Positions 19,798-42,351 of a DNA stretch of 42,351 nt are shown here, piece by piece. This DNA comes from an uncultured Clostridia bacterium (GTDB taxonomy: Bacteria > Bacillota > Clostridia > Christensenellales > UBA1242): positions 1 through 42,351 of the forward strand of contig CAMENR010000009.1 of assembly GCA_945928645.1 (NCBI GenBank), in the 5' to 3' direction. The notes beneath the pieces are model-generated. The model did not search any database. It was given only the letters and a program-made list of their open reading frames with translations, and was not told the DNA's origin. The position numbers and the translations under genes are program-made. Each line of letters begins with the position of its first letter. Positions within the stretch are counted from its first letter, which is position 1.

Positions 19798-19825
19798 TTG
19801 ACAAAAACCAAAAGAAAAGTATAAT
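19798..19825 (+). promoter_or_regulatory. SigA-type promoter
   Basis: TTGACA, 16-bp spacer, TATAAT. Confidence 0.75.
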
Positions 19826-32080: not shown

Positions 32081-32313
32081 ACTTATTTCAAAAAAAACAC
32101 AAGCAAGCACATCTTACTTATCCCCAAAAAACACAAGCAAGCACATTATACTTATTCCAAAACACATAAGAGAATACATTCTACTTATCCCCAAAAACAT
32201 AAGATAATACATTCTACTTATCCCCAAAAACATAAGATAATACATCCTACTTATCCCAAGAATATAAGCAAACACATTCTACTTATTTCAAAAACTAAAA
32301 GAAAAGGATGTGT
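32081..32313. repeat. Imperfect ~33-bp tandem repeat, six full units plus a partial
   Basis: Units start ACTTAT at 32081, 32116, 32150, 32183, 32216, 32249, partial at 32281; lengths 35,34,33,33,33,32. Confidence 0.9.
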
Positions 32314-40349: not shown

Positions 40350-40408
40350 AAATTCTAAATTTTATTTGCTTAAAAATAAAATAGTGGTAAAATATTTTTG
40401 AGGTGAAA

Positions 40409-42034
40409 ATGAATTTCTTTGCAGTTGACAATATCCATTTGTATATAACAATAGCACTTTCTGTTATAAACGGTATCCTTATGTGCTTTGCATCATACAA
40501 ATATTTTCAAATAATTCAACTTTCTGGATACAAGTTAAAGGGTTATTTTGCGTGGCTTAAGGAAACGAAGTGGAGTTATGCCCTAAGAATGATACTTCTA
40601 AGTTTGTTAAGTGCTTTCTGTGTGCTTGTAACCAATGCACTATTCAATGTTTATCATCAAGAGGCATTATACTCTTATATTGGACTTGTGTTTTACTTTT
40701 ATTTTACCATAGTGTTTATAAAAGCGCTTTACAACGCTCCAAAGAAGATTCCTCTTAAAAACACAACGAGAATGACTAGGCTTAATGTCGCAATGCTTAT
40801 ATTTGTTAGCCTATTTTCCTTTGTGGTGGTTTGGGGCTCATTTCAATATCTAAGTTTTGTGAAGTTTGGGGCTTTGTGTGTTGTGCCAGCGGTGGTGGTC
40901 TTTATCGTTCCAGTAGTTCACCTAATTATGCTTCCACTAGAGAAACTTATAGTATCTAGGTATCTTCATCAGGCAAAAAGCAAACTTGCAAAGAGAAATG
41001 ACCTTATCAAAATCGGCATAACGGGTAGTTATGCAAAAACCAGTGTAAAATATATATTGAATACTATTTTGTCGCAAAAATATAAGGTTTGTATGAGCCC
41101 ACAGAGTTTTAACACGCAAACTGGGCTTAGCAAAGTGGTAAATAATTATCTTACAGACTTGGATCAAGTGCTTATCGCAGAGATGGGGGCGAGGAGCAAA
41201 GGGGATATAAAGAAGCTTTGCAAACTTATTTCGCCACAATATGCCATAATAACAGGCATTTCTCCACAACATCTTTTGACTTTTAAGTCTTTGGACAATA
41301 TAAAAAGGACAAAATTTGAGTTGGTAGAATCTCTTTCGCAAAATGGGGTTTGTGTTTTTAATGGTTTTGACCAGGAAGTGTGCGATATGTATTCTTGGGC
41401 AAATATTGACAAAAAGTATCTTGTAGGCAAAGATAAGGATATATCCGCAAAAGACATTCAGTTTGACCAAGATGGCACAAAATTTGTGCTTGTTTTGGGT
41501 GAAAAGGAATATAACGTGCATACAAAACTTTTGGGGGAACACAATGTTCAAAACATCTTGCTATGTGTGCAGATGGCAAAGTGCCTTGGCTTGAGTGATC
41601 AGCAGATTGTCAGAGGGATAAAGTCCCTTCAACCAGTGCCACACAGATTGGAACTAGTGAAAACTGCAACCAACCTAATATTAGACGACTCTTTCAATGC
41701 AAATATTCGTGGTAGCAAAATTGCCCTTGATGTGCTGGGAAAATTGCCAGGCAGAAAGATTGTCATTACTCCAGGCTTGGTGGAATTGGGCGAAAGGGAA
41801 TATGACGAAAATGTTGTCTTTGGCGAGCAAATCGCAGGAGTGGCAGATTTTGTTATTATAGTAAACAAAGTGAATTTTGAAGCAATAAAAAAGGGACTAG
41901 ACAACAAAAAATTTAAGGAAGAAAACATTTCTCAGGCAGAAACCCTGGAGCAAGCCAAAATATTGATGAAAGAAATCCTTCAACCAGGCGACACAGTGCT
42001 ATTTGAAAATGACCTCCCAGACAACTATATCTAA
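40409..42034 (+). CDS. Membrane-anchored Mur ligase-family protein (MurF-like)
   Basis: Several N-terminal TMs then IGITGSYAKTSVKYILNTIL...QSFNTQTGLSKVVN...LIAEMGARSKGDIKKLCKLISPQYAIITGISPQHL. Confidence 0.82.
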   Translation: MNFFAVDNIHLYITIALSVINGILMCFASYKYFQIIQLSGYKLKGYFAWLKETKWSYALRMILLSLLSAFCVLVTNALFNVYHQEALYSYIGLVFYFYFTIVFIKALYNAPKKIPLKNTTRMTRLNVAMLIFVSLFSFVVVWGSFQYLSFVKFGALCVVPAVVVFIVPVVHLIMLPLEKLIVSRYLHQAKSKLAKRNDLIKIGITGSYAKTSVKYILNTILSQKYKVCMSPQSFNTQTGLSKVVNNYLTDLDQVLIAEMGARSKGDIKKLCKLISPQYAIITGISPQHLLTFKSLDNIKRTKFELVESLSQNGVCVFNGFDQEVCDMYSWANIDKKYLVGKDKDISAKDIQFDQDGTKFVLVLGEKEYNVHTKLLGEHNVQNILLCVQMAKCLGLSDQQIVRGIKSLQPVPHRLELVKTATNLILDDSFNANIRGSKIALDVLGKLPGRKIVITPGLVELGEREYDENVVFGEQIAGVADFVIIVNKVNFEAIKKGLDNKKFKEENISQAETLEQAKILMKEILQPGDTVLFENDLPDNYI

Positions 42035-42080
42035 ATGAATATGTAATCTCAAATTTTGTTATATCCAATATATGTAAAAA

Positions 42081-42106
42081 GGCTAGTAGAAACACTAGTC
42101 TTTTTT
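42081..42106 (+). terminator. Rho-independent terminator
   Basis: GGCTAGT-agaaac-ACTAGTC + T6. Confidence 0.85.
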
Positions 42107-42122
42107 GAAATAAGCATACTTT

Positions 42123-42312
42123 AAAACGAAAATTATATAAAACACTAAAAATCACATCAAGAAAAGGTAAAACTCCTCCAAAAACCCCAAAAAGCATAAA
42201 AAAACCAAAAAAGGTCAAAATAATCAAAAAAAACTCCAAAAAATATCAAAAATGTATAAAATATACAAGAATTTTACAAAATAATAAAAATAATCAAAAA
42301 AACTACCCAAAA
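42123..42312. promoter_or_regulatory. Phased A-tract (probably curved) DNA
   Basis: A4-A8 tracts recurring at about 10 bp on the + strand. Confidence 0.75.
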
Positions 42313-42316
42313 TCTT

Positions 42317-42345
42317 TTGACAAAAATAGTAGTGTAAAATATAAT
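42317..42345 (+). promoter_or_regulatory. Perfect-consensus SigA promoter reading out of the window
   Basis: TTGACA (42317-42322), 17-bp spacer, TATAAT (42340-42345). Confidence 0.9.
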
Positions 42346-42351
42346 GAGGGC

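Follow-up and report, generated by a model that had tools for sequence, protein, structure and literature searches.

The DNA analyzed here (the window, 42,351 nucleotides from an uncultured Clostridia bacterium) ends, almost on its last base, in a perfect consensus promoter preceded by a long series of regularly spaced A-tracts, which raises the questions of why the sequence should stop there and what such a promoter would drive. The window is the entire contig C9 of a draft genome of 1.107 Mb in 30 contigs. Among named relatives, ObgE places the host nearest to a Clostridia bacterium from goat caecum (79% identity), and the host's family is filled with genomes of approximately 1 Mb. When the window is placed in the context of the other contigs, the region is probably (at a rough probability of 0.6) one of five promoter cassettes, in each of which about 200 bp of phased, curved DNA and a sigma-A promoter drive a common leader and a surface-protein gene of the PARCEL/DUF285 family.

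The A-tract array and its promoter

The original prediction, made from the window alone, listed 13 A-tract centers at an average spacing of about 9.9 bp, running straight into TTGACA-N17-TATAAT. All 13 were recovered, each within 0.5 bp of its listed position and in tracts of 4 to 8 bp, and counting the interval from 42259 to 42279 as two turns gives a mean spacing of 9.85 bp. The array (Table 1) consists of 61% A and 5% G. Within the band from 9.5 to 11.5 bp, the spectrum of its A/T-tracts has its maximum at 9.9 bp, with p = 0.001, which is the floor of the 1000 dinucleotide shuffles used; at exactly 10.5 bp there is no power, and the period of 9.9 instead of 10.5 bp belongs to the signal. 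Autocorrelation gives peaks at lags 9-10 and 20-21 (p = 0.005-0.02). As regular short spacers could by themselves mimic phasing, a stricter control was applied in which all tract and gap lengths are kept and their order alone is permuted, and the phasing of the array survives it (p = 0.0025). Tandem Repeats Finder reports weak periods of 19-20 bp at the array.

Table 1. Coordinates of the features at the right-hand end of the window
Feature	Position	Strand	Remarks
MurF-like Mur ligase	40403..42034	+	upstream neighbor, not part of the unit
Terminator-like hairpin and T6	42072..42110	+	closes the upstream transcription unit; stem arms ~42076-42106
A-rich, G-poor spacer	42107..42316	+	fills the gap from the upstream terminator to the -35 box
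A/T-tract array	42123..42316	+	~20 tracts of 4-8 bp, 9.9-bp phase, predicted intrinsic bend
Terminal 55-mer	42297..42351	+	matches the end of contig C20 exactly; point where the assembly graph collapses
-35 box TTGACA	42317..42322	+	identical in 5/5 copies
17-bp spacer AAAATAGTAGTGTAAAA	42323..42339	+	GTGTAAAA common to all copies
-10 box TATAAT	42340..42345	+	identical in 5/5 copies

Across the 42-kb contig, the array is the top-scoring 10-bp window (6.49, against 3.17 for the next best), and a wedge model makes it the most curved segment of the contig (shuffle p = 0.005), as the expectation of curved DNA had implied. On test arrays this implementation of the wedge model behaved as expected, with strong bends for A5N5 and A4T4CG and none for A5N10 and T4A4CG. 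Strong 10-bp signals found at further contig ends were set aside, as they fall in lysine-rich coding sequence (C2) or have no consensus promoter behind them. Elsewhere in the window, at 32092-32305, an A-rich sequence repeats in tandem with a unit of 33/66 bp, close to three turns of the helix (score 216-251).

Directly upstream of the -35 box the A/T-tracts stand in helical phase, as in the anatomy of UP elements. The TTGACA-N17-TATAAT sequence at 42317-42345 is exact and agrees with the sigma-A/sigma-70 consensus (spacer 16-18 bp), and the predicted start, an A located 7 nt past the -10 box, falls at 42352, just outside the window; this A is visible in three other copies of the promoter (C23, C26, and C12). 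As a statement of anatomy, the description of curved, UP-like A-tracts running into a sigma-A promoter of consensus sequence has good support. Perfect TTGACA-N16-18-TATAAT sites number 33 in the genome, including one at 19798-19825 in the window, whereas the reversed control pattern has 0; full-consensus promoters are frequent in this genome, and another surface-protein paralogue uses one (C20:8535).

The hairpin that closes the upstream transcription unit folds at -12.3 kcal/mol (z -4.0) and is not listed by a consensus terminator scanner. In C9, C20, C12, and C26, the terminator-like hairpin of the preceding gene lies 171-228 bp before the -35 box, and the A-rich array fills this interval in all four alike. 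The genes that precede the cassette in these four copies include the MurF-like gene and, as judged by eye, a tRNA and an epimerase-like gene.

Five copies and the break in the assembly

The core TTGACA-N17-TATAATGAG occurs in five exact copies, all of them at contig ends (C9, C20, C12, C26, and C23) and nowhere else in the genome. As a repeat of five copies could not be assembled, the contig stops at the promoter; with the same promoter at five collapsed contig ends, its position at the window edge is to be expected, and the repeat accounts for an edge that had seemed coincidental. Exact 55-mer junctions also join many other contig ends in the genome, and we infer that these exact meetings are repeat breaks left by an assembler working at K=55.

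Other repeats were observed toward contig ends. A dispersed repeat with the common block CATCACAGTTTGAAT(T/C)ATCATCAGTTGCTGGCAAGTATCC is found at or near the ends of C15, C17, C19, C21, and C30, and the ends of C7, C8, and C17 carry units of 11-12 bp (GCTAATATTTTT; TTGTAAATTTTG) in short tandem arrays. The end of C28 (L070 ~1050-1579) carries a CRISPR-like array, with 36-nt repeats GTTTTAGTTATATATAGAATAACATAACACTCAAAC and spacers of ~30 nt, that runs off the contig end.

Among the five copies, the core is nearly invariant from just upstream of the -35 box to the GAG, and over ~120 bases at the promoter end the identity between copies is 67-94%. Farther upstream, pairwise identity is 0.30-0.57, which for A-rich DNA may be little above what composition gives. 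The core promoter was found in its own genome only among 51 genomes searched.

Downstream of the sibling copies

Past the -10 box, C12 extends for 107 bases and C26 for 39 bases, and C11 starts inside the -10 box and reads on. The leader AAGAATTTTAGATAAAAGGAGAACCCCCAAAAT is common to C26, C12, and C11. After the start comes AAGAATTTTAGATAAAAGGAGAACCCCCAAAATG and then a 38-codon open reading frame, MKILATKTASIRGWEKSLKRNLVTTDITTQNKGLCATV (ORF38), which in C11 and C12 is preceded by a Shine-Dalgarno site; over 112 bases, the leaders of these two copies are 96% identical. In C11, ORF38 ends in a terminator-like hairpin followed by T8, with its stop codon in the hairpin loop, an arrangement, seen in this one copy, that would suit a leader-peptide attenuator. 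Taken as a whole, the 190-nt leader folds with no unusual stability (z -1.7). An exact search of genome_contigs with the 20-mer that spans the Shine-Dalgarno site gave no match, and in a search of 99 relatives the leader DNA was found in its own genome only, apart from weak, chance-like matches.

About 90 bases after the hairpin of C11 begins a protein of 504 amino acids with a hydrophobic N terminus, which matches DUF285 (E 3.9e-31) and TIGR02167 (E 9.3e-42) in five stretches (PARCEL repeats). The open reading frames after this surface gene look by eye like rpsF-ssb-rpsR. Near rpsF-ssb-rpsR-like frames, again by eye, a small acidic protein is encoded on the minus strand (L057 1039-1629), with a Cys/Asp-rich tail that ends in ~20 Asp.

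These downstream sequences bear on what had been proposed to lie past the edge, namely, a probably very highly expressed transcript, either a stable RNA (tRNA, rRNA, tmRNA, or 6S) or, as a last option, an unusual gene. No Rfam family was found in the downstream sequence of C11 and C12, apart from one chance-level match elsewhere, and the window holds no relevant tRNA, tmRNA, or Rfam match. A stable RNA gene at the edge was dropped after the downstream sequences of C11 and C12 had been read, and the last option fits their leader, Shine-Dalgarno site, and 38-codon frame, with the DUF285/PARCEL gene behind in C11. The original prediction thus holds for the curved, UP-like anatomy of the promoter and finds no support for the stable RNA product.

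Contigs C1, C14, C19, and C20 (at its start) each break within a homologous surface gene that lacks its 5' part, and the C11 gene contains an exact copy of the last 55-mer of C1. Five promoter ends therefore face five surface-gene ends, which is a count and not a linkage, and for which the simplest reading is a five-member family of promoter, leader, and surface gene that collapsed in assembly. With its GAGGGC, C11 fits C9, C20, C23, or C26 and not C12 (GAGAAC), and no contig joins the window's own promoter to a downstream gene. A surface gene of the PARCEL/DUF285 family follows the cassette in at least one copy and most likely in all, and we infer that one also lies behind the window's own promoter.

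Promoter, leader frame, and terminator-like hairpin would also make up a complete small transcription unit, and it could be argued from this, and from the near identity of the leader between copies, that the cassette stands by itself as a multicopy gene for a small RNA or a small protein, the ~170-nt transcript of which ends at the hairpin and T8 and acts as an RNA or as a 38-aa peptide, with the surface gene as a mere neighbor. We consider this unlikely, as the transcript belongs to no Rfam family and ORF38 has no convincing homologue in the 99 relatives and none in Pfam/NCBIfam. Such a gene would, moreover, leave the surface gene without a visible promoter, as no promoter-like site was found on the gene strand in the ~90 bp before the C11 surface gene, and it would not explain why surface-gene ends with missing 5' parts equal the promoter ends in number.

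The array among its copies and among known systems

The genome was also searched for further A-tract arrays upstream of consensus promoters, as the original prediction had advised. Of 30 perfect-consensus promoters scored for upstream phasing, A-rich arrays precede only the five family copies, and none of the 25 others has a comparable array. Phasing scores are 4.5-7.8 in four of the five family promoters and at most 2.3 elsewhere, and the upstream A content is ~54-61% in all five. Between -200 and -75, phasing is significant in every copy (p 0.002-0.034). When tract order is permuted, C20 behaves as C9 does (p = 0.0035), the signal is weaker in C26 (p = 0.03) and marginal in C12 (p = 0.08), and C23, a weakly phased copy, gives none.

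It is conceivable that the array was not selected for bending at all and is a low-G, A-rich spacer that was duplicated with the promoter, its regular spacing being a product of slippage or tandem duplication. The poor phasing of C23 and the weak 19-20 bp periods would agree with such an origin, as would the A/T-tract periodicity also present in lysine-rich coding sequence of the genome (C2). This account nevertheless appears doubtful, as the distal parts of the arrays stay phased though no longer convincingly alignable, other consensus promoters are without an array, and permutation of the tracts abolishes the signal in C9 and C20. It is highly improbable that the five copies are the ends of a mobile element or prophage and not promoters of a resident gene family: they are multicopy, at assembly breaks, and differ in their flanking genes, and the cassette was not found in the relatives searched, but there is no match in phage or plasmid records, the unit follows the neighbor's terminator-like hairpin in four copies and interrupts no gene there, the similarity between copies declines by degrees in the upstream direction, neither a sharp boundary nor an inverted repeat or transposase was seen, and the sole assembled downstream sequence is the surface gene followed by the rpsF-ssb-rpsR-like frames.

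The preferred reading, a promoter cassette shared by a family of surface genes, can be compared with known systems. Upstream A-tracts and UP elements can stimulate bacterial promoters via the alpha subunit of RNA polymerase (Ross 1993; Estrem 1998; Aiyar 1998, cited in PMC4081817), and the likeness lies in A-tracts spaced by the helical turn just ahead of a promoter of the sigma-A type. The known UP region is short (-38 to -59), whereas here ~20 tracts extend over 190 bp. In Helicobacter pylori, the promoter of the adhesin gene sabA has A-boxes, a T-tract, and intrinsic curvature; its phased A-boxes and curvature tune RNA polymerase binding, the role of curvature being a proposed one, and many tract-bearing loci encode surface proteins (PMC4081817). 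Both cases place UP-like phased A-boxes (spaced 10-11 nt in sabA) upstream of a surface gene, but here no single tract reaches 9 bp, there is no evidence of length variation, the promoters are five paralogues, and the -35 box is consensus. The same source also cites work in which A-tracts inhibit, and more upstream contact does not always give more output (PMC4081817).

On the side of the gene product, PARCEL/DUF285 (TIGR02167) repeat families of surface proteins are described from Mollicutes, Listeria, and others (PMC2996958). The C11 gene resembles them in its strong matches to DUF285 and TIGR02167 and in belonging to a multigene family in its genome, and the shared curved promoter and leader peptide are an added feature here; the words "promoter" and "upstream" are absent from PMC2996958.

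By analogy with these systems, the array most likely raises polymerase recruitment: the phased tracts would increase promoter activity via contacts with the alpha-CTD of RNA polymerase together with upstream wrapping or bending. The hairpin between leader frame and gene, present in one copy, suggests attenuation. It would make the leader an attenuator, and the surface gene, as the ~90 bp before it contain no promoter-like site, would depend on read-through from the cassette promoter. It could further be speculated, although we hold this to be unlikely, that these dispersed surface genes share a dedicated cassette in which the activating signal has been conserved as long-range curvature and not as sequence, and that this signal is coupled to a 38-aa leader peptide, restricted to the lineage, and a terminator, which together decide on read-through into a variable surface gene.

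Phased A-tracts upstream of promoters are known, mostly as single cases. In this one small genome, five paralogous promoters at dispersed sites have kept an A-rich array, clearly phased at ~10 bp in four of the five, while its sequence drifts, and they offer a natural test of whether selection acts on the curvature itself. That a family of repeat surface proteins shares such a cassette suggests, for this uncultured gut lineage, either strong and coordinated expression or a hotspot where recombination varies the surface.
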